Below, piece by piece: positions 4,084-14,734 of a stretch of DNA of 26,835 bases. The stretch lies in the IMG/VR virus record IMGVR_UViG_3300033150_001001, positions 1 through 26,835 of that record, one strand, 5' to 3'. Position numbers and translations under genes: made by a program. How positions within the stretch are numbered: the stretch's first letter is position 1; every line of letters begins with the position of its first letter. Under the pieces are notes generated by a model. The model was not told the origin of the DNA, did not search any database, and saw only the letters and a list, made by a program, of their open reading frames with translations. This DNA comes from a virus.

Positions 4084-5199
4084 ATGGTTCCAGGTCTCGT
4101 CCAGGGAGAGCCGTCCAGCAAGAGCGTGCCCCTGCTCCAGCTCCTCTGCCGCTGGGGAGAGACGCTCAAGGACCCCGTGTCCGCCACGTTCCGCATCGAG
4201 GACGTCCACGATCCGTCCGCCGCGGCGACGACCGTGGTGGCGACCACATCCCTGGGGGCCGCGAACAAGCTGGGGACGGGCCGGTACGCGCTGCCCACGG
4301 GGGATACCTCCGGGTGGAACGTGGGAACGCACAGGGCCGTCTGCGAGTACGTGATGTCTGCGGGAGGGCCGACGCACACGCACATCCTGGAGTTCGAGGT
4401 TCTGGACCCGCTGGACTGGACGACCGGGGTGGACTTCCTCGGGCTGGCCACGACCCGGGACCTGTACCTCGACGAATACGTGGCGTCCACGGTGACCCGC
4501 AGGCAGGTCCACAGGTGGCTGAACCAGTGGTCCTGGGACCTGGAAGCGAAGCTGGGGCGACGCTTCGGCCCCCGGTACATGGTCGTCCGGGTATCCGGCA
4601 GGGAGTCGCCCATGCTCCTGCTGCCGGAGGCCCTGCTGGCCATCGAGAAGGTCGAGGCCGTGTGGAAGGACTCGGACGGCGAGGAGGTCACCTACGAGTA
4701 CGACAACGCCTACTTCCGGGTGCTGAACCGCCACCTGGACGACCCCATGGTCGGGGAGGACGACAGGTACGATCCCAGGCTGGAGATCACGGGGTGGACC
4801 GACCCCGTGTCCTTCATCTCCACCTTCGACTGGCCGTGGGGCAGGCAGAACGTCAAGATCACGGGGGTCTGGGGGTTCACGGACCCGACGCCGCACCCCT
4901 CCGGGGAGCAGGTCCCCTGGGGCCGGCGGCCCCGGGAGCTGACCCAGGTGCTCGGGGCGCTGGTGTCGCGCTCCCTCGAGGACCCGACCATGACCGACCC
5001 GACCGTCTGGAGCCCGGGCAGCATCCAGCAGATCAAGACCCGGGACCAGTCCTTGAAGTTCGGTGGGGGCTCGGGAGGAGGCGGCTTCCGGCCCGCGCCC
5101 GACTCCCCCACGGGGGACCCCGCGCTGGACCGGCTGCTGCTGCGGTTCATGCAGCCCGTATCCTCGGACTACTCCGGGAAAGAGGAGGAGGACCTGTGA
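4084..5199 (+). CDS. Head-tail connector (gp6-like) with extra N-terminal beta domain
   Basis: About 371 residues from ATG 4084 (MVPGLVQGEP); an upstream in-frame ATG at 4033 lies inside the previous gene and is less likely. Residues about 20-105 look like a beta-sandwich: VSATFRIEDVHDP, then GTGRYALPTGDTSGW, HRAVCEYVM and ILEFEVLDP. This is a pattern often found in front of phage connector domains. The rest matches gp6-type connectors: HRWLNQWSWDLEAKLGRRFG, a PMLLLPEALLAIEKVEAV strand pair, YFRVLNR, and RQNVKITGVWGFTDP. In HK97-like phages gp6 forms the ring below the portal. Its C-terminus (GGGSGGGG linker and acidic tail) overlaps the next gene by GTGA. The fused domain could contact the neck exterior (inference). 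Confidence 0.75.
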   Translation: MVPGLVQGEPSSKSVPLLQLLCRWGETLKDPVSATFRIEDVHDPSAAATTVVATTSLGAANKLGTGRYALPTGDTSGWNVGTHRAVCEYVMSAGGPTHTHILEFEVLDPLDWTTGVDFLGLATTRDLYLDEYVASTVTRRQVHRWLNQWSWDLEAKLGRRFGPRYMVVRVSGRESPMLLLPEALLAIEKVEAVWKDSDGEEVTYEYDNAYFRVLNRHLDDPMVGEDDRYDPRLEITGWTDPVSFISTFDWPWGRQNVKITGVWGFTDPTPHPSGEQVPWGRRPRELTQVLGALVSRSLEDPTMTDPTVWSPGSIQQIKTRDQSLKFGGGSGGGGFRPAPDSPTGDPALDRLLLRFMQPVSSDYSGKEEEDL

Positions 5200-5498: not shown

Positions 5499-6011
5499 GT
5501 GCCGCCCAGCGTCCCGCTCATCTTCCCGGTCGAGGCCGTGATTCACCGGCTGGACATCACGGCCACCCGGGCCGTGGATCCCCCGGGACCGGACGCCGCG
5601 GGCTTCGACGACGTGCTGGGCGAGCCGCTGGGCTACGCGGGGGTGGGAGGCGAGAGGACGGCTCCCAGGCAGGAGATGGCCCCCATCCGGGTCAAGTGCC
5701 AGGTGGAGACCCGGACCTTCGAGGAGCTGCGCATGATCTTCACGGGCAACGACCCCGTGGGGAACCTCGTGCTGGTCTGCCACCGGAGGCTGCTCCGGCG
5801 GCAGGGCCTCATCGACGCCTCGACGGGACGGTGCCTGCTCAAGTCGGGAGACCGAATCGAGAAGCTGGAGCGGGGTGGACGGACGGTCATGCAGCCCGTC
5901 AAGCCCCTGTACGTCTACGCCGTGCTGCCGGCCTCCTGGGGGCTGGGCGCGGACGGGTACGACCTTGAGGTGGTCTACACCACCGAGCGGACCGCGTACC
6001 CCATGAGCTGA
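5499..6011 (+). CDS. Probable head closure / neck protein
   Basis: 170 residues from GTG 5499, three bases after the previous stop, with GAGGAGG at about 5487-5493. The start reads VIFHRL-like (FPVEAVIHRLDITATRAVDP), then a PIRVKCQVETRTFEELRM strand-helix, NLVLVCHRRLLRRQGLID, GRCLLKSGDRIEKL and a final strand DLEVVYTTERT. This beta-barrel-like arrangement, with a 'GRCLLKxGDRI' segment, occurs in head-closure-type proteins lying two genes after the connector. Here it follows the gp6-like connector, as expected for the stopper that seals DNA before tail joining. The assignment is from position and secondary structure pattern rather than a diagnostic motif. Confidence 0.55.
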   Translation: MPPSVPLIFPVEAVIHRLDITATRAVDPPGPDAAGFDDVLGEPLGYAGVGGERTAPRQEMAPIRVKCQVETRTFEELRMIFTGNDPVGNLVLVCHRRLLRRQGLIDASTGRCLLKSGDRIEKLERGGRTVMQPVKPLYVYAVLPASWGLGADGYDLEVVYTTERTAYPMS

Positions 6012-6752: not shown

Positions 6753-7739
6753 ATGGCGCAGCCCACGATCACACAGGTCACCCCGTCGTCCGGTCCGGCT
6801 ACGGGGTACACGTGGGTCGAGATTGCCGGGACGAACTTCCGCACGCCCACGGTGACGCCGACCCCGACCGGAGCCGGGACGGCCCCGACCACTGTGTCCG
6901 TCCTGTTCGGGACGAAGGCGGCACTGGACGTGGAGGTGTGGAGTTCCGGGCTCGTGCGGGCGCAGGTGCCCTCCCTGGGCGGAGACGCCGGTGTCTCCGG
7001 GACCCAGGTGGACATCACGATCACAAACCTGGACGACGCTGGCAACCCGATGTGGCCCTTGGAGCGGGTCACGCTGTCCAAGGGGTACACGTACACCTAC
7101 TGGGGCCTGCGGGCACCCAGGGCCAGGCCGACGTTGCTGGAGGTGCTGCGGGCCTTCGTGCTCCGGGTGCAGCGGGCGCTGGGCGTGGCCGTGGGCGCGG
7201 GGCAGCACGTGGAGTACGCCCCGGCTGGAGCCACGGTCACGGAGCTTGCCACCATCCCGTGCGTGGCCATCACGCGCATCGAGGTCCCCAGGGACAGGGA
7301 GTACGGGTTCACGGACAACGAGCCCATCCAGGTATCCAGGGCGGACGGAAAGGTGGACGAGTACCGGGGCCAGACCACCCGGATGCTCGTCATGGACCTC
7401 GTGCTGGCCGGGGGCTCGGACGTGGGTGGCATCACGGAGAGCCTGTACCTGCTGGAGAGCTTCCTGGAGGACATCGAGCTGCACCCCTACCTGGACGTGG
7501 AGGTGGCCTCGGGTCCCTACCAGGGGGAGACGAACCAGTACGTCATTGACGTGCCGTCCGACCCGGTGCAGGTGGGTGCGGAGGGCAACGCGGGGATCGT
7601 GGCCTGGCGAACGCGGGTGCAGGTGCGCGGAATCACGAGCATGCCCGACTACCCGACCGGGCTTTTGGAGACGGCCACGGGCATCGTGCTCCTCGCGGGT
7701 AGCCTGTCCGGAACGGCGGTGGAGAGTGTGCCGGTCTGA
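6753..7739 (+). CDS. IPT/TIG-domain virion protein, possibly fused tail terminator
   Basis: 328 residues. Residues about 3-112 form a recognisable IPT/TIG immunoglobulin-like domain: PTITQVTPSSGPATGYTWVE, then GTNF, VLFGTKAALDVEVWSSGLVR and VDITITNLDDAGNP. The second part is different: LLEVLRAFVLRVQRALGV, CVAITRIEVPRDREYG, and a long strand/helix region TRMLVMDLVLAGGSDVGG with LLESFLEDIELHPYL. This would suit a tail-terminator-like alpha/beta fold. Its position, directly before the sheath cluster, fits a protein capping the tube and sheath. The IPT/TIG call is fairly secure; the terminator role is inference. TIG domains are known as surface-exposed adhesive modules on phage tails. Confidence 0.6.
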   Translation: MAQPTITQVTPSSGPATGYTWVEIAGTNFRTPTVTPTPTGAGTAPTTVSVLFGTKAALDVEVWSSGLVRAQVPSLGGDAGVSGTQVDITITNLDDAGNPMWPLERVTLSKGYTYTYWGLRAPRARPTLLEVLRAFVLRVQRALGVAVGAGQHVEYAPAGATVTELATIPCVAITRIEVPRDREYGFTDNEPIQVSRADGKVDEYRGQTTRMLVMDLVLAGGSDVGGITESLYLLESFLEDIELHPYLDVEVASGPYQGETNQYVIDVPSDPVQVGAEGNAGIVAWRTRVQVRGITSMPDYPTGLLETATGIVLLAGSLSGTAVESVPV

Positions 7740-7816: not shown

Positions 7817-8125
7817 ATGGTCATCTTGAAGAACGTCAGCCGGCACCTGCCGTTCCAGATCACCCTGGCTCACGAGGTGGTCTGCGCACGGACCGGGGAG
7901 TGCCTGTGCGAGACCCGGCGGAGGATGGTGCCGGGCAAGACCAAGCCCGTCGTGGAGCGCATCCCACGGAGCATCCAGCTCATGCCGGGGGAGACATCCG
8001 AGCCGCTGCCAATGGCCGTGAAGGCCATCGGGCAGGTGAGGGTGGCCCTGGAGCGGGGCGTCATCACGATGGAGGAGCTGCCCATCCAGCCCGTCCTCGT
8101 CCCGGCAGAGGGAGGTGACGCATGA
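7817..8125 (+). CDS. Small protein upstream of and overlapping the tail sheath gene
   Basis: 102 residues with a good GGAGG site (7805-7809). It begins MVILKNVSRHLPFQITLAHE, continues with CARTGECLCETRRRMVPG and SIQLMPGETSEPLPMAVKA, and ends LPIQPVLVPAEGGDA. Its TGA overlaps the sheath ATG as ATGA, indicating translational coupling. The strand-rich pattern with an 'IPRSIQLMPGETSEPLP' segment suggests a small beta protein; two close cysteines (CARTGECLC) could bind metal or pair, but this is only a possibility. Small genes directly before the sheath are common in myophages and generally uncharacterised. A structural role in the tail is inferred from coupling. Confidence 0.6.
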   Translation: MVILKNVSRHLPFQITLAHEVVCARTGECLCETRRRMVPGKTKPVVERIPRSIQLMPGETSEPLPMAVKAIGQVRVALERGVITMEELPIQPVLVPAEGGDA

Positions 8126-10398
8126 TCTCCGGACGGTCCAGGATCGACATCAAGGACGGGTCTCCGTCCGTCCCGAGCGTCCAGTCCCTCGAGTACGACG
8201 TGGTGCTCATGGAGGGCGTCACCGAGTGGGGTCCGCTGGAGGCCACGGAGATCACCTCGTTCGCCCAGTTCCAGGAGATCTTCGGCGGGTACATCTCCGG
8301 GAGACAGGCCCCCGTCCAGGCCCAGGTCCTCTTCGACATGGGCGTGCACAAGATCATCTTCGGTCGCGTGGTTCACATGAGCGGATCGTCGCCAGCGTCC
8401 GCCGCCAAGGCGAGCCACACGGCCCAGACATCTTCGGGAGCTCAGACCACGGGCACCGTGACTGGCACCGTGGCCGCCCCGTTCGCGCTGGACAATGGGG
8501 AGACGCTGGTCGTGTCGGTGGACGGAGGCGCGGACCAGACCGCCACGTTCTCGGCGGTCGCCGCGAGCATGACCTCCGGGGAGGCCGAGACCTACGCCCT
8601 GTCCGATGGGGATACCCTGGTCATCCGGGTGGACGGAGGCTCCGATCAGACCGTGACCTTCTCCGCGGGCGACTTCGTGGACATCACGAAGGCCCTCGCC
8701 TCCGAGGTGGCAGCGGTCATCCAGACCCAGGTGACCGGCGTGTCCGCATCCGCGTCTGGCGGCAAGGTCACGGTGACCTCCCTGCGCAAGGGCACGGCCT
8801 CCAGCATCCAGGCCGTGCAGCAGGGCGGCGGGGTCTACGGGACGGACGCCAACTCGGAGCTGCACTTCCCGGTGACCGCGCAGACCGGCTCCGGGGACTG
8901 CGCCAATCACAACTCCGTCACCCTGTCCGAGGTCAAGACCTGGGCTGAGGCCGCCATCGTGGGCATCACCGTGGGCTCCTCGGGCTCCTACCTGACCATC
9001 GCCACGAACACGGCGGGCGCGGCCGGGAGCATCCAGGTCCAGCCCGTGTCCACGGCGGATACCCCGCTGGGGCTGGACAACGACCTGCACGTGGGCAAGG
9101 ACGCGGGAGCGCAGGACACCCTGAAGATCTCCGGGAAGTACTACGGAGCCAAGGGCAACCGCATCTCCTACATCATCTCCGATGCCACGGACGGCGTTGC
9201 CTCCCACTTCGATCTCGCGGTGTACCTGGACGGGGTGTTCCAGACCAAGTACACGAACAAGACCATGGACCCCTCGTCCACGGACTACATCGTGACCGCG
9301 GTGAACACGGATGGAGGAGGGTCCAAGCTCATCGAGGTCACGGACATGAACGCGGGGGGCACCGTGCTGGAGCGGCGGCCCGCGAACAACTCCTCGGCGC
9401 AGGTGCTCTCCGGCGGCGCGGATGGGCTGTCCGGCCTGGACTACAACGACTTCCTCGGCTCGGAGACCTACAGGACGGGCCTGTACAGGTTCCTGGCGCT
9501 CGCCCAGGGCGACATCCTGCTCTGCCCGGACGAGACATCCACCTCGTTCCAGAACGGGGCGATCTCCTGGTGCGAGGACCAGAAGAAGGGCAAGGTCATC
9601 TTCGTGCCGGAGACCCCGGCCAGCTCCGACAAGGCGGCGGCCGTCTCCCACGCGCAGGCGCTCACGCCCTCCGAGAAGGCCACCGGGGTCTACTGGCCCT
9701 GGATCAAGATCAGCAACCCGGACAAGAGCGTGTACGGCCAGTCGGACACCATCACCATCGCGCCCTCCGGCGCCGTGGTGGGCAGGTACGTGAAGAACTC
9801 CTCCCTGTACCGGGAGAAGATGGCGAAGCAGCCTGGCAACGCGACCTACGGCGCGCTGGACGTGGCCGTGGACGTGGAGACGGCAGAGGTCAACGACCCG
9901 AGCGTCCGGGACTACGTGACTCCCAAGCGGGTCAACCCCATCGTCGCGGACATCGACCCGCAGACCGGCTCGTTCGGCGTCTGGATGGACGACGTGATGT
10001 CCCTCAAGGGCACCGGTAACTGGAAGTCCGTGGGCCAGATCCGGTTCGTGGCCTATGTCAAGAAGGTGATCGCCGCGTACCTGGACGGGTTCCGCACGCA
10101 GGGGATGAGTCCCCACTTCCGCTACCAGATCAAGTCCGGCATCACGGCATGGCTGCTCCAGTGGCTCGGGGACGACATGGACGTGTTCGCGTCCGCGAAG
10201 GCGTCCGAGGCGTTCTACGTGGAGACCGACGTGGAGGGCACCGGCCTGAACAACCCGCAGGTCCAGGCCAACGAGCAGTTCAAGGTCATCGTGGGGCTGG
10301 CCCTGGCCGAGGCCGGCAGGTTCGGGGAGCTGACCATCACCAAGGACGACAGGGCCTTCCAGACCTACGTGCAGAAGGCCCTCGCCGGTAGCGCCTGA
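8122..10398 (+). CDS. Contractile tail sheath protein with large insertion
   Basis: 758 residues from ATG 8122 with GGAGG just upstream. The N-terminal part (SVPSVQSLEYDVVLMEGVTE...SFAQFQEIFGGY) and the C-terminal part (GITAWLLQWLGDDMDVFASA, YVETDVEGTG, QFKVIVGLALAEAGRFGELT) match the phage sheath family; the C-terminal strand and helix form the interlocking arms of the contractile sheath. Between about residues 92 and 330 is an inserted beta-rich module in which an element recurs: LDNGETLVVSVDGGADQT near 122-140 and LSDGDTLVIRVDGGSDQT near 160-177. The insertion likely sits on the outer face. At 758 residues it is longer than the minimal sheath (about 400-500). The tube gene follows. Confidence 0.9.
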   Translation: MISGRSRIDIKDGSPSVPSVQSLEYDVVLMEGVTEWGPLEATEITSFAQFQEIFGGYISGRQAPVQAQVLFDMGVHKIIFGRVVHMSGSSPASAAKASHTAQTSSGAQTTGTVTGTVAAPFALDNGETLVVSVDGGADQTATFSAVAASMTSGEAETYALSDGDTLVIRVDGGSDQTVTFSAGDFVDITKALASEVAAVIQTQVTGVSASASGGKVTVTSLRKGTASSIQAVQQGGGVYGTDANSELHFPVTAQTGSGDCANHNSVTLSEVKTWAEAAIVGITVGSSGSYLTIATNTAGAAGSIQVQPVSTADTPLGLDNDLHVGKDAGAQDTLKISGKYYGAKGNRISYIISDATDGVASHFDLAVYLDGVFQTKYTNKTMDPSSTDYIVTAVNTDGGGSKLIEVTDMNAGGTVLERRPANNSSAQVLSGGADGLSGLDYNDFLGSETYRTGLYRFLALAQGDILLCPDETSTSFQNGAISWCEDQKKGKVIFVPETPASSDKAAAVSHAQALTPSEKATGVYWPWIKISNPDKSVYGQSDTITIAPSGAVVGRYVKNSSLYREKMAKQPGNATYGALDVAVDVETAEVNDPSVRDYVTPKRVNPIVADIDPQTGSFGVWMDDVMSLKGTGNWKSVGQIRFVAYVKKVIAAYLDGFRTQGMSPHFRYQIKSGITAWLLQWLGDDMDVFASAKASEAFYVETDVEGTGLNNPQVQANEQFKVIVGLALAEAGRFGELTITKDDRAFQTYVQKALAGSA
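8480..8680 (+). repeat. Duplicated beta element inside the sheath insertion
   Basis: Two copies of an approximately 25-residue motif lie about 38 residues apart in the sheath protein, with the pattern L.[ND]G[ED]TLV[VI].VDGG[AS]DQT.TFSA. The DNA also retains clear similarity (GACGGAGGC[GT]C.GA.CAGACC). This indicates an internal duplication of a surface module. Confidence 0.6.
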
Positions 10399-10431: not shown

Positions 10432-10908
10432 ATGCCCGCTCCAGCACGGAACCGACAGTTCAGGATGTCCTATCGGTTCCAGGTCATCGTGGACGGCTTC
10501 ACCTCGTTCGCCTTCAAGGCGTGCACGGGGCTGGAGATGACCGTGGCCGTGGCCACCTACGGGGAGGGCGGGGCCATGGCCCCCATGAAGGAGCCGGCCA
10601 AGGCCGACTTCTCCAACGTCACCCTGACGAGGGGCGTCGGGCTGAACACGGAGATGTGGTACTGGATGCTCGACTGCGTGGACATGGGCAGCAAGCTGCC
10701 CATCGGCGTCGGGGCCAAGTTCGCGGATCTGGCCAAGACCGTCACCATCGCGGAGATGGACCGGAAGGCCGTGGACGTGGTGTACTGGGACCTCTACTCC
10801 GCGTTCCCCGTCCGGTACAAGCCGGGCGAGTGGGACTTCGACTCGGACGACGTGAACATCGAGGAGCTGGAGATCGCCTACTGGTACTTCGACAGGAAAA
10901 CGTCCTAG
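10432..10908 (+). CDS. Tail tube protein, T4 gp19-like
   Basis: 158 residues with a strong TAGGAGGC site before ATG 10432. The sequence follows the gp19/contractile tube pattern: MSYRFQVIVDGFTSFAFKAC, TGLEMTVAVATYGEGGAM, FSNVTLTRGVGLNTEMWYWM, then a VTIAEMDRKAVDVVYWDLYS strand pair and a final VNIEELEIAYWYFD strand. Tube proteins of this class form stacked hexamers inside the sheath and are shared by T4-like phages and extracellular contractile injection systems. The size (about 160) is typical. It lies between sheath and chaperone genes as expected. The family call is firm; the exact subfamily is not. Confidence 0.85.
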   Translation: MPAPARNRQFRMSYRFQVIVDGFTSFAFKACTGLEMTVAVATYGEGGAMAPMKEPAKADFSNVTLTRGVGLNTEMWYWMLDCVDMGSKLPIGVGAKFADLAKTVTIAEMDRKAVDVVYWDLYSAFPVRYKPGEWDFDSDDVNIEELEIAYWYFDRKTS

Positions 10909-10958: not shown

Positions 10959-11783
10959 ATGCTCGTCAAATGCCTCACCGGCCTCACGTTCGAGGCCCGT
11001 CCCTGGAACCTCGGAGACATCGAAGCCCTGCTGGAGCCCACGGACCTCGAGTCCGCCACGCTCCAGACCCGGATGCTCTCCCTCGTGGCCGGCAAGGTCA
11101 CGGATCCCGGCCCCTACAGGTTCGAGGTCGGCTCGCCTCCGGACGTGGACGAGATGTCCGTGTCGGACATTACCCTGGCCTGCATCAGCATCCGAGCCAG
11201 GACACCGCCGAAGGAGCTGGAGCCCGAGATTCCCTGCTCGAGCTGCGGAGACGTCAAGGTGCGGGAGGTCCGCTTCGAGGACTTCCCCGTTGCTCCCTAC
11301 TCGGACGAGGCCCGGGAGGCCCTGGCAGCGGGGCAGCCCGTCGAGCGGACCTACGACCTCGGGGACGGCAAGCCCGTGAGGGTCCTGCTCGTGGATAGCT
11401 TGGGCAAGGACATCCTACGGGCAGCCAAGTACGCCGAGGGGAACCCCGTCAAGATCCTGGCCGTCCAGAACTGCCAGCACATCCACTCCGTGAAGCAGGG
11501 CCGGAAGGAGTACGTGGGGCTGCACGAGGTCTTGCAGTTCTACAGGCGTGCCCCGTGGACCTTCCAGGACGCTCTGGAGAGGGACATCGACAGCCTGTTC
11601 GGGGGCGTGGACACCTCCATCGAGTTCACCTGCCCGGCCTGCGGGCTGAAGCAGACGGCGGTGCTCCCTTTGGACCTCGCGTTCTTTGGCCTCGACCCCG
11701 AGAGGCGGCAGAGGCGGTCGCAGGGCTCCTCCTCGGATGCAGCCTCCGAGCAGAAGATTACGCTCGGCTCGTATTTGGCCTGA
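10959..11783 (+). CDS. Tail assembly chaperone, T4 gp26-like with two zinc-ribbon CxxC pairs
   Basis: 274 residues from ATG 10959. It begins MLVKCLTGLTFEARPWNLGD, has a first CxxC pair at C93/C96 (IPCSSCGD) and a second at C225/C228 (FTCPACGLKQTAVLPLDLAF). The 'CxxC then hydrophobic strand then FF' ending is typical of the T4 gp26/gp51-related baseplate or chaperone proteins found in this slot. Two pairs could bind one zinc ion. It sits between tube and tape measure, the place of tail assembly chaperones. The C-terminus (SSSDAASEQKITLGSYLA) is followed in the -1 frame by an open extension to 11992, so a longer frameshift product is probable. Confidence 0.65.
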   Translation: MLVKCLTGLTFEARPWNLGDIEALLEPTDLESATLQTRMLSLVAGKVTDPGPYRFEVGSPPDVDEMSVSDITLACISIRARTPPKELEPEIPCSSCGDVKVREVRFEDFPVAPYSDEAREALAAGQPVERTYDLGDGKPVRVLLVDSLGKDILRAAKYAEGNPVKILAVQNCQHIHSVKQGRKEYVGLHEVLQFYRRAPWTFQDALERDIDSLFGGVDTSIEFTCPACGLKQTAVLPLDLAFFGLDPERRQRRSQGSSSDAASEQKITLGSYLA

Positions 11784-11992
11784 CCTGGCGGGAGGCGGAA
11801 GCCTCCCACATCGCCCTGGGAGGCTACAGGGACATCCGGGAGATACCCGTGTGGCTCCTCGGCGAGCTGGAGTACCACGTGCAGAAGCGCATCTCCAAGG
11901 TATCCCACACGCCGCAGCGAGGGTCGCGCTACGCCGCAATGGATCCTCGTTCCTCCGGAGGCGACGTGGTAGACTCGGGACAGGGAGGCTGA
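11720..11992 (+). CDS. Probable -1 frameshift extension of the tail assembly chaperone
   Basis: In the frame one base back from the chaperone, an open stretch reads AEDYARLVFGLTWREAEASH, then LGGYRDIREIPVWLLGELEY and HVQKRISKV, ending at TGA 11990-11992. It has no ATG, GTG or TTG that would include the conserved-looking YARLVFGLTW part, so it must be reached by frameshifting. It fills the entire space between the chaperone stop and the tape measure. This copies the gpG/gpGT arrangement of tail chaperones, where a minority of ribosomes shift -1. The precise shift point is uncertain: somewhere between 11720 and 11780. The start given here is the approximate earliest point, not a codon. Confidence 0.55.
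   Translation, partial: AGLLLGCSLRAEDYARLVFGLTWREAEASHIALGGYRDIREIPVWLLGELEYHVQKRISKVSHTPQRGSRYAAMDPRSSGGDVVDSGQGG
11790..11807 (+). promoter_or_regulatory. Perfect hairpin GGGAGGC-GGAA-GCCTCCC after the chaperone stop
   Basis: A 7-bp perfect stem capped by a GNRA-type GGAA loop begins six bases after the chaperone TGA (11781-11783) and nine bases after the sequence T TTG GCC (11774-11780). That distance suits a stimulatory structure for -1 frameshifting. It lies inside the extension reading frame. Confidence 0.5.
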
Positions 11993-11998
11993 CGCACC

Positions 11999-14734
11999 GT
12001 GGCGCGTAACCAGGGACTCTGGCAGGGCATGCTGAGGCTCGTCCTCAAGGACGACGTGAGCAAGCCCGCCAAGCGCGTCGTCGAGTCCACGAAGAAGGTC
12101 GTCCGCGAGACGAAGGCCATGGGAGACGTCGCGGACAAGACGGCGCCCAAGGTCAAGGTCCTCGCGGGCAACTTCAAGAACTTGGCGGGGGCCTTCACCG
12201 GGCTCATGGTGGCGCGCTACGTGGCCCGGGGCATCGCCGGCATGGTGAAGCCGGCCATGAGCCTCCAGCTCACCCTGACCCGGCTTCAGACAATCACGGG
12301 AGCCACCACGCAGGAGATGGACCGCTTCCGCAAGGTGGCCTTCGAGGTGGCCAGGACCGCGCCCTATGGTCCCCAGGAGGTCCTGGACGCCATGCTGGAG
12401 CTGCGGCGGGCCACGGGCTCCACGGCGGCCACCCTTCGCGGAATCAGCGGCGCGGTCGGCCTGGCCATGGCTTCCTTCGGCAAGATGCCGCTCGAGCAGG
12501 GCGCCAAGATGATGGCCGACCTGACGCGGGCCTTCGGGATGTCCGGGGCACAGGCAACCGTGGCCGCCGAGAAGATCGTGGCGGCGTCCCGGGCCATGGG
12601 GATTCCCATCGAGGACCTCTCCAAGATCATGGGCAAGCTGGCCATGGCGGGCCTGCTCGGCCAGCAGTCCTTCGACGAGATGCTCAAGTCCATCCTGCTG
12701 ACCATGGGCGTCACGCGATCCGCGGAGCGGGCGGGCACCCGCCTCATCTCCCTGATGGCCAGGTTCAGCAGGCCCAAGCTGCGTGAGGTGTTCGAGCGCC
12801 TGAACATCCCCATCGAGGACGCCCGGTACAACATGCTGAGCATGAGCGAGATCCTGATCTTGCTCGCACAGCGGGCGTCCCAGAACATGACCGTCGTGCG
12901 GGATGCCCTCCAGGAGGCGTTCGGGCAGAAGGCGGTCAAGCCCATCCTCGCTCTGCTGGGGAGGCTCAAGAACGGCATCCGAACCCAGCGCGGGGAGGTC
13001 ATCAAGCTGGGGAAGGTCTACAAGTACCTGGACAAGGTGCTCAAGGGAAGCCAGGGCACCATCGGGGACATGCAGGAGAAGTACCTCGGCACCATGGAGG
13101 CCAAGGTCGAGATCCTGAAGGAGGCATTCGACAAGCTGCGGATCGTCCTCGGGGAGAAGCTGATCCCCATGCTGCGTCCCCTCGTCACGATCTTCACCCG
13201 GCTGTTCGAGGCCATGGGCAAGATCCTGTCGTCGCCCATCATCGGGTGGCTGGGGGGCCTGGCCCTCCAGATCGCGGCCATCCGGACGGCGCTCTGGGGC
13301 GTCGCGGCGGCCATCCAGGGCATCAGCCGCATCCGGCAGGTCGTGTCCATGAACCTGGCCGAGAGCTTGCTCGCCGGCAGGATCGGCGTGGGGATGGGCG
13401 CCGTGGGCGCAGGGGCCGGGGTGAGCGCGGGCACGGCGGCAGCGGCCGGCGCGGTCGCGGGAGGAGCCGCTGCGAGGGGAGCCGCGGCGAGAGCGGCGGC
13501 TTCCACCGCCACGGGAGGGGTGAATCCTGCCAGCTTGCAGGCCATTCGCTCCAGCATGTTCGCCGGGGTGGGGGTCGCGGGGGCAGGAGCGATACTCGGA
13601 GGCGTCATCAAAGGCTTCGCCCGCCTCGTTGGTCCCCTCGGGCTGGCCATCCTCGGCTTCGAGGCGCTCAATCTCGTCATGGATCAGTTCAAAGAGACGG
13701 CAAAGGAGAAACGGGCGGTCCTCATCGCCGCAGAGAAGCTAGCTCGGCTCCTGACCGAGGGAGAGTTGATGCCCGAGGAGGCGTTCGAGAGGGCTACCAA
13801 GAGGATCTACTCCGCGTGGGGGGACTTCGTGCGCTGGTGGCACGATGAGAAGCTAGGCTATCAGCTCGTCGAGGAGCAGATCGCCAAGATCAGGGCGGAG
13901 CATCAGGAGAAAGAGTATCAGAACGCGCTGAAGATCCTGGACATGCGCGAGCGGCAGTGGCGCGAGGAGCACAAGTACCACGACAGGACGTACAGCGCCC
14001 TCCAGCTCGGGACCAAGCGCCTTGAGACCCTGATGGGGAAGCTGGGCCTCATGGGTACCTACAAGCCCGCCATCGTGGATCGCAAGGCTTACGAGGTCTT
14101 GAAGGCCCAGATCGAGCGGGCAAGGGGCGTCGTGCACCGGCAGGCGCTCAGGGAGCAGTTAGAAAAGGGCAGAGTGTCGGACCGGACGTATGCCCTGCTG
14201 CGGGAGCTGGACACTGCGGCGGCGCTGGCCCCCGAGAAGATCGAGCCCATCATGAAGAAGATGGTCAGGGGCGCCGCCAAGCCGGAGGAGGTCAAGAGCA
14301 TCATGCCCTACCTGATCCAGATGAGGGCAGTCGGGCTCGGCGCGGCCTACGAGCACCCGGAGCTGGGCGTGACGAAGCAGGCCGCGGAGGCGTTCGGGAA
14401 AAAGGTCATGGTCCCTCTGTCCAAGATCAACGAGCCCGCCGCCCGGATGTACGCCGCCGCCCGTGTGCGGGCGAGGGAGGGCTACCTGTTCACCCAGACG
14501 ACCCAGGAGATCAAGGGATACGACCCGGAGACCGGCCAGATCGTCAAGACGGAGCGGGACAGGGTGTACGAGGAGGTGACCCGCTCCTACGAGGAGATGC
14601 GCAAGACCCTGGATGCGCTGCGCAAGGAGCTGGGCGGCGTGCTGACCTCCGGCGACATCCGGGCCAAGGTGACGCTGGAGAACGCGAGGGACCCGGCGAC
14701 CGCTCCGGTGCCCATGGGACCCGGGGCGTTCTAG
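11999..14734 (+). CDS. Tape measure protein, TP901-type
   Basis: 911 residues from GTG 11999, with CAGGGAGG about eight bases upstream. It is the longest gene of the window, and its position after the chaperone is diagnostic. The N-terminus is basic and helical; about residues 85-330 match the TP901 minor-tail/tape-measure core (LQLTLTRLQTITGATTQEMD, AMLELRRATGSTAATLRG, GLAMASFGKMPLEQGAKM, LREVFERLNIPIEDARYN, then ALLGRLKNG). Hydrophobic segments occur near residues 415-440 (IIGWLGGLALQIAAIRTALW) and 520-560, around an Ala/Gly-rich low-complexity stretch (about 465-510). The C-terminal third is helical and charged. Tape measures set tail length and can contribute to DNA passage across the membrane. 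Confidence 0.9.
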   Translation: MARNQGLWQGMLRLVLKDDVSKPAKRVVESTKKVVRETKAMGDVADKTAPKVKVLAGNFKNLAGAFTGLMVARYVARGIAGMVKPAMSLQLTLTRLQTITGATTQEMDRFRKVAFEVARTAPYGPQEVLDAMLELRRATGSTAATLRGISGAVGLAMASFGKMPLEQGAKMMADLTRAFGMSGAQATVAAEKIVAASRAMGIPIEDLSKIMGKLAMAGLLGQQSFDEMLKSILLTMGVTRSAERAGTRLISLMARFSRPKLREVFERLNIPIEDARYNMLSMSEILILLAQRASQNMTVVRDALQEAFGQKAVKPILALLGRLKNGIRTQRGEVIKLGKVYKYLDKVLKGSQGTIGDMQEKYLGTMEAKVEILKEAFDKLRIVLGEKLIPMLRPLVTIFTRLFEAMGKILSSPIIGWLGGLALQIAAIRTALWGVAAAIQGISRIRQVVSMNLAESLLAGRIGVGMGAVGAGAGVSAGTAAAAGAVAGGAAARGAAARAAASTATGGVNPASLQAIRSSMFAGVGVAGAGAILGGVIKGFARLVGPLGLAILGFEALNLVMDQFKETAKEKRAVLIAAEKLARLLTEGELMPEEAFERATKRIYSAWGDFVRWWHDEKLGYQLVEEQIAKIRAEHQEKEYQNALKILDMRERQWREEHKYHDRTYSALQLGTKRLETLMGKLGLMGTYKPAIVDRKAYEVLKAQIERARGVVHRQALREQLEKGRVSDRTYALLRELDTAAALAPEKIEPIMKKMVRGAAKPEEVKSIMPYLIQMRAVGLGAAYEHPELGVTKQAAEAFGKKVMVPLSKINEPAARMYAAARVRAREGYLFTQTTQEIKGYDPETGQIVKTERDRVYEEVTRSYEEMRKTLDALRKELGGVLTSGDIRAKVTLENARDPATAPVPMGPGAF

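Follow-up and report, generated by a model that had tools for sequence, protein, structure and literature searches.

The tail assembly chaperones of T4-like phages, which we take to be gp26 and gp51, were reportedly treated by Vladimirov, Gautam and Davidson in 2022 (Virology 566:9-15). That study is cited in PMC12846349 and PMC10274946, and according to the latter some T4-like phages encode the short form and the fused long form in separate genes and use no frameshifting. At lambda-type chaperone frameshifts, a stimulatory downstream RNA structure is often, although not always, present. Under the strict XXXYYYZ consensus the Z base is A, U or C, and other Z bases occur in phage data (PMC10274946). 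Within the Vandenendeviridae/Andersonviridae (phage Adele), comparative genomics has pointed to a conserved -1 frameshift in the chaperone gene at GTTTTT (PMC12846349). Here we analysed a 26,835-nt stretch of viral DNA (the window) and propose that a programmed -1 ribosomal frameshift very probably occurs at C_CCU_UUG (11666-11672) in its tail assembly chaperone gene.

Tail module, chaperone family and relatives

The window harbors a contractile-tail module, with sheath, tube, zinc-ribbon protein and tape measure genes on the + strand in this order, and then baseplate genes. The tail sheath protein (8122-10398) matches PHROG 15814 (E 6e-95), a PHROG without a named function, and Pfam PF04984, phage sheath, below the cut-off (E 0.0021). 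This sheath protein is large (758 aa) and displays an apparent internal duplication, DNGETLVVSVDGGADQTATFSA ... SDGDTLVIRVDGGSDQTVTFSAGDF, common to the relative L001. The gp19-like tail tube protein (10432-10908) was recognized by PF06841 (E 7.5e-25), and the tape measure protein (11999-14734, GTG start at 11999) by PHROG 28 (E 9e-26) and PF10145 (E 1e-15). These matches of the neighbours place the chaperone gene between the tail tube and tape measure genes, the classical context. The chaperone frame starts at 10959 and ends at TGA 11781-11783, giving a short form (TAC-N) of 274 aa with two zinc-ribbon-like CxxC pairs, C93/C96 and C225/C228.

As a single sequence, the short protein matched PF12322 (T4_baseplate) weakly, at 18.1 bits and E 0.0023, under the curated cut-off of 24.5, which is an annotation threshold and no biological feature; its match to PHROG 150 was also weak (E 0.0013). 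Profile-profile comparison by hhalign aligned the proteins of the window, L001 and L014 over 171 columns, most of the protein, with a profile of eight gp26-like proteins (Prob 97.7, E 2.2e-12), whose members L020 and GiJojo gp82 pass PF12322. A Foldseek search of the chaperone AlphaFold model (pLDDT 65.5) against BFVD returned 26 matches at E <= 0.001, with TM-scores of only about 0.3-0.4, and the highest-ranking named matches, with a best E of 7e-8 at probability 1.0, were T4-like baseplate hub (assembly) proteins. Comparison with the PDB, by sequence and by fold, yielded no significant match. By the profile-profile match and Foldseek, the short protein is a member of the T4 gp26-like family.

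All IMG/VR contigs were scanned with CCCTTTGG plus a degenerate pattern for the peptide downstream of it. Three contigs matched, the already known L001 and L002 and the additional L014, and each is a true relative with its match at this position. L001 and L002 do not differ in this region and encode a chaperone 51% identical to that of the window, so only three independent sequences (window, L001 = L002, L014) were found. L014, a 157 kb contig, is a true remote relative by pairwise BLASTP of its tube (E 3e-21), tape measure (E 2e-39) and chaperone (E 1e-12). Its chaperone stops 57 bases past the heptamer, after which its -1 frame stays open for a further 114 aa and closes shortly ahead of the tape measure gene. 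Because the search pattern contained the heptamer, the architecture of L014 counts as independent evidence and its heptamer does not. When the conserved peptide was used in a codon-independent scan, no relative lacking a heptamer turned up; the scan added L020 and L021 (511 kb and 28.5 kb contigs, with the same sequence over the compared stretch), in which C_CCA_AAG lies in frame beside the same LPLDLSFF motif and the -1 extension is also open. In cultured phages, tblastn for relatives of the chaperone and tube found none, and tblastn with the L001 chaperone gave chance-level matches only; a sheath scan of genome contigs had an injection-system locus as its sole result.

The -1 frame, the heptamer and the frame under selection

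The original prediction had seen the chaperone frame stop at 11783 and the -1 frame stay open to 11992 with no usable start, an observation that our analysis bears out. Uninterrupted from 11399 on, the -1 frame ends at 11992, just before the tape measure start. It contains no ATG, GTG or TTG between 11556 and 11848, and the only starts nearby are GTG 11555, deep within the chaperone gene, and CTG 11780, overlapping the stop. An independent ORF from GTG 11555 was considered and rejected, as the codon-usage profile (computed from 11600) lends that frame no support before about 11690.

In the window the extension spans 11672-11992, with its stop at 11990-11992, and adds 106 aa past the shift. It shares homology with the -1 extension of L001 (pairwise BLASTP E 6e-13) and could be aligned with that of L014, and both relatives keep it open to the tape measure gene. 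By codon usage, the -1 frame of the window is preferred beyond about 11755; in L001 the two frames score about equally well after about 5849, and the -1 frame scores better once the chaperone stop is passed. Homology to the L001 extension and codon usage together indicate that the -1 extension is genuine coding sequence. Pfam and PHROG searches with the window extension gave nothing of note. A comparison of the extension profile with ten gp51-like/DUF6760 C-domains (hhalign E 0.02, Prob 2%) did not establish a relation of the C-domain to gp51/DUF6760 by sequence. Its AlphaFold model is of low confidence (pLDDT 53) and only suggests helices at residues 9-21, 27-40 and 60-78.

C_CCT_TTG occupies 11666-11672 in the chaperone frame (CCT 11667-11669, TTG 11670-11672), some 110 bases ahead of the stop of that frame. 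Among about 6,460 codons of the window it is the sole in-frame XXXYYYZ with Y = A/T, and CCCTTTG is likewise the sole such site in L001 (5816-5822; about 2,280 codons) and in L014 (1836-1842; about 1,650 codons). Both codons are rare in the window, CCT making up 5.3% of Pro codons and TTG 5.1% of Leu codons, and codon frequencies put the probability that the peptide would be encoded with this heptamer at about 1 in 1,000 in the window and 1 in 300 in L001. The 16 bases around it, GGTGCTCCCTTTGGAC, are identical in the window and L001, even though the two chaperones are only 51% identical. With G as Z, CCCUUUG falls outside the strict consensus. The statement that no X_XXY_YYZ heptamer is visible was mistaken; this one lies just upstream of the stretch that had been searched. 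A slip site of a new type is not supported, and the heptamer is canonical and conserved in two divergent relatives. The fallback suggestion of an earlier shift, at 11720-11750, pointed in the right direction and did not go far enough upstream. Slippage in the CTCCTCCTC tract (about 11727-11737), judged from the sequence, was rejected, as it gives no plausible tRNA re-pairing.

Between the heptamer and the stop, the alignment of the window with L001 is free of gaps, and the frame under selection in the dual-frame overlap (11673-11783) was examined by resampling synonymous codons in one frame and scoring the other, a test based on these two sequences only. From 11673 to 11708, similarity in the chaperone frame exceeds what the -1 frame predicts (0 of 4,000 resamplings; reverse P 0.99), whereas from 11709 to 11780 similarity in the -1 frame exceeds what the chaperone frame predicts (P 0.0135; reverse P 0.24). 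Taken over the whole overlap, similarity in the -1 frame alone is not significant (P 0.25). As judged from these two sequences, the test shows that near 11709, well upstream of the stop, selection on the chaperone frame gives way to selection on the -1 frame.

Alternative explanations and RNA structure

The switch bears first on termination-reinitiation, by which the extension would be a separate gene started at the chaperone stop, a reading that we regard as improbable. Overlapping starts do exist: CTG 11780-11782 overlaps TGA 11781-11783 in the window, ATG 5933-5935 overlaps TGA 5931-5933 (TGATG) in the -1 frame of L001, and at an injection-system locus (L008) an ATGA overlap leads into a DUF6760 protein (E 3.6e-12) after a zinc-ribbon gene. 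However, CTG is the sole start on offer at the window stop, and L014 has none at its stop at 1899, its first -1 start afterwards being TTG 1938. Selection on the -1 frame is in force from about 70 bases upstream of the stop, which speaks against reinitiation at a CTG or ATG overlapping it; reinitiation would, moreover, drop the helix DYARLVFGLTW and leave a conserved heptamer of rare codons unexplained. Separately, ATG 5933-5935 could yield some reinitiation product beside the frameshift in the L001 phage.

Marginally less probable still is a -1 shift at a non-canonical site between 11673 and 11709. The constraint tests place the frame switch only at or before about 11709, which would accommodate such a site, but the 385-base frame overlap of the window contains no further X_XXY_YYZ, and the canonical heptamer is conserved in all three loci.

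The slip site originally proposed, T TTG GCC (11774-11780) aided by a GGAA hairpin, now appears very unlikely. The hairpin itself, GGGAGGC-GGAA-GCCTCCC at 11790-11807, is exactly as described and begins nine bases downstream of T TTG GCC. However, a shift there would re-pair poorly in the A site (GCC to GGC), the site is missing from L001 and L014, and selection on the -1 frame, in force from about 11709, starts about 65 bases upstream of it, which disfavours a shift at this position. Nor is the hairpin likely to have the role assigned to it. Five perfect 7-bp hairpins with 4-base loops occur in the window against 3.4 expected from Markov shuffles; because this count in a GC-rich window is no more than chance gives, such a hairpin is ordinary. 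L001 does not conserve it as such, the heptamer is 118 bases upstream of it, and it is probably incidental.

Directly downstream of the heptamer, a hairpin is significant only in L014, where it begins about 9 bases past the heptamer (z -2.6 against synonymous permutations, P 0.01). No downstream hairpin beyond chance was found in the window (z between -1.4 and +0.8) or in L001, no downstream RNA structure is common to the window, L001 and L014, and an Rfam search matched no family. A sequencing or assembly indel, or a decaying gene, is also very unlikely: the window is a single metagenomic contig, but the divergent L001 and L014 share its two-frame layout and the extension keeps its homology, and the relatives thereby contradict this reading.

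Programmed -1 frameshifting at C_CCU_UUG would proceed as follows. Most ribosomes would stay in frame and produce the short chaperone of 274 aa, in which the final 36 residues resemble a disordered tail. A minority would slip back by one base, with the P-site proline tRNA moving from CCU to CCC and the A-site leucine tRNA from UUG to UUU, and would add 106 residues in the -1 frame, giving a predicted long form (TAC-NC) of 344 aa (238 + 106) with a C-terminal domain predicted to be small and helical. If lambda gpG/gpGT is a guide, the tape measure protein may be coated by many copies of the short form and few of the long, and the C-domain of the long form may recruit tube subunits. What the sequences show is an open -1 frame with homologues in relatives, a heptamer conserved in frame, and a change in the frame under selection; slippage itself, its efficiency and the division of labour between the two forms we infer. 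The heptamer, the relatives and the frame test thus uphold the core of the original prediction, namely that a gp26-like zinc-ribbon chaperone encoded between the tube and tape measure genes is subject to programmed -1 frameshifting, with a conserved canonical heptamer replacing the new slip site and GNRA hairpin that had been proposed. The 106 residues of the long form would escape gene callers.

Second domains across the gp26-like family and known systems

A small second domain encoded in another frame follows other gp26-like genes as well; it often lacks a start and in most cases carries no annotation. In the -1 frame, heptamers accompany it in L020 (CCCAAAG, 5087-5093), Agrobacterium phage Atu_ph07 (TTTTTTC), Stenotrophomonas phage RAS14 (TTTTTTT) and LR756511 (GGGTTTT/TTTTTTC). 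TTTTTTC and TTTTTTT are weak evidence taken alone, because TTT TTT also follows from a conserved Phe-Phe motif. Jumbo-phage gp26-like genes with -1 extensions lie at L020 5087-5093, L027 2268-2513 and L029 2220-2477, where the heptamers CCCAAAG, TTTTTTC and TTTTTTT are in frame, and in the annotated genomes of Atu_ph07 and RAS14 the extension is absent from the chaperone annotation.

In the +1 frame, a conserved domain (for example YYIPGMTW..TESMAIFER) follows gp26-like 'baseplate hub' genes in Bacillus phage SP-15 (L022, 2126-2449), Listeria phage LIS04 (L023, 2117-2425) and Streptococcus phage GXN1 (L026, 2129-2497). It is unannotated in LIS04 and GXN1 and present only as a short fragment in the SP-15 annotation; CC CGA TTY just before the stop, common to all three phages, is a candidate +1 frameshift site. 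The gp26-like genes of Streptomyces phages GiJojo (L011, 10705-11007) and pSt2308 (L030, 7250-7507) end in CTC TGA, beyond which the +1 frame goes on to encode a small conserved domain (SEYEQLVDAYKWSLTEIRKLTFRERKHWL); the GiJojo annotation shows it as a gene with a TTG start, and the pSt2308 annotation lacks it. CTC TGA in these two phages is possibly an RF2-like +1 frameshift site. A second domain in the +1 frame is less clear in Slicko01 and LR756508.

With about even odds, in our estimate, the gp26-like family is a recoding hot spot, in which the same kind of C-domain would be reached by -1 shifts (CCCUUUG; CCCAAAG, UUUUUUC, UUUUUUU), by +1 shifts (CC_CGA_UUY; CUC_UGA) or through separate genes. 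If true, the direction of recoding would have switched repeatedly within one protein family. How the long form is produced seems to have changed several times, which is testable in the cultured phages SP-15, LIS04, Atu_ph07 and GiJojo.

A separate-gene version of the two-domain layout was observed in the contractile injection system of a Chloroflexi (L008), where an ATGA at 6869-6872 joins the zinc-ribbon stop to the DUF6760 start. Like the window, this system encodes a small helical protein in the -1 frame after a zinc-ribbon chaperone-like gene; unlike in the window, this protein has a separate ORF whose ATG overlaps the stop, and a frameshift is not needed. The T4-like gp26/gp51 chaperones belong to the same gp26-like family as the short protein of the window, whereas those T4-like phages that carry separate genes differ from the window, with its one gene and -1 shift. 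Phage Adele resembles the window as a myovirus in which a conserved -1 frameshift in the chaperone was inferred by comparative genomics, and differs in its slippery sequence.

Another of the closest known systems is lambda gpG/gpGT (PMC5009743), with which the window shares a gene between tube and tape measure, an in-frame XXXYYYZ and, here at the level of sequence, a -1 shift into a C-terminal extension with its stop ahead of the tape measure gene. Unlike lambda, the phage of the window is contractile-tailed, its chaperone is a gp26-like zinc-ribbon protein for which family searches revealed no similarity to lambda gpG, its heptamer is CCCUUUG, and the overlap after the site is long, at about 110 bases. 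We regard the locus as a genuine candidate for a -1 frameshift of the known lambda G/GT type, with a canonical conserved heptamer in a gp26-like chaperone, which would extend lambda-type chaperone frameshifting to the gp26-like zinc-ribbon chaperone of an uncultured contractile phage lineage.
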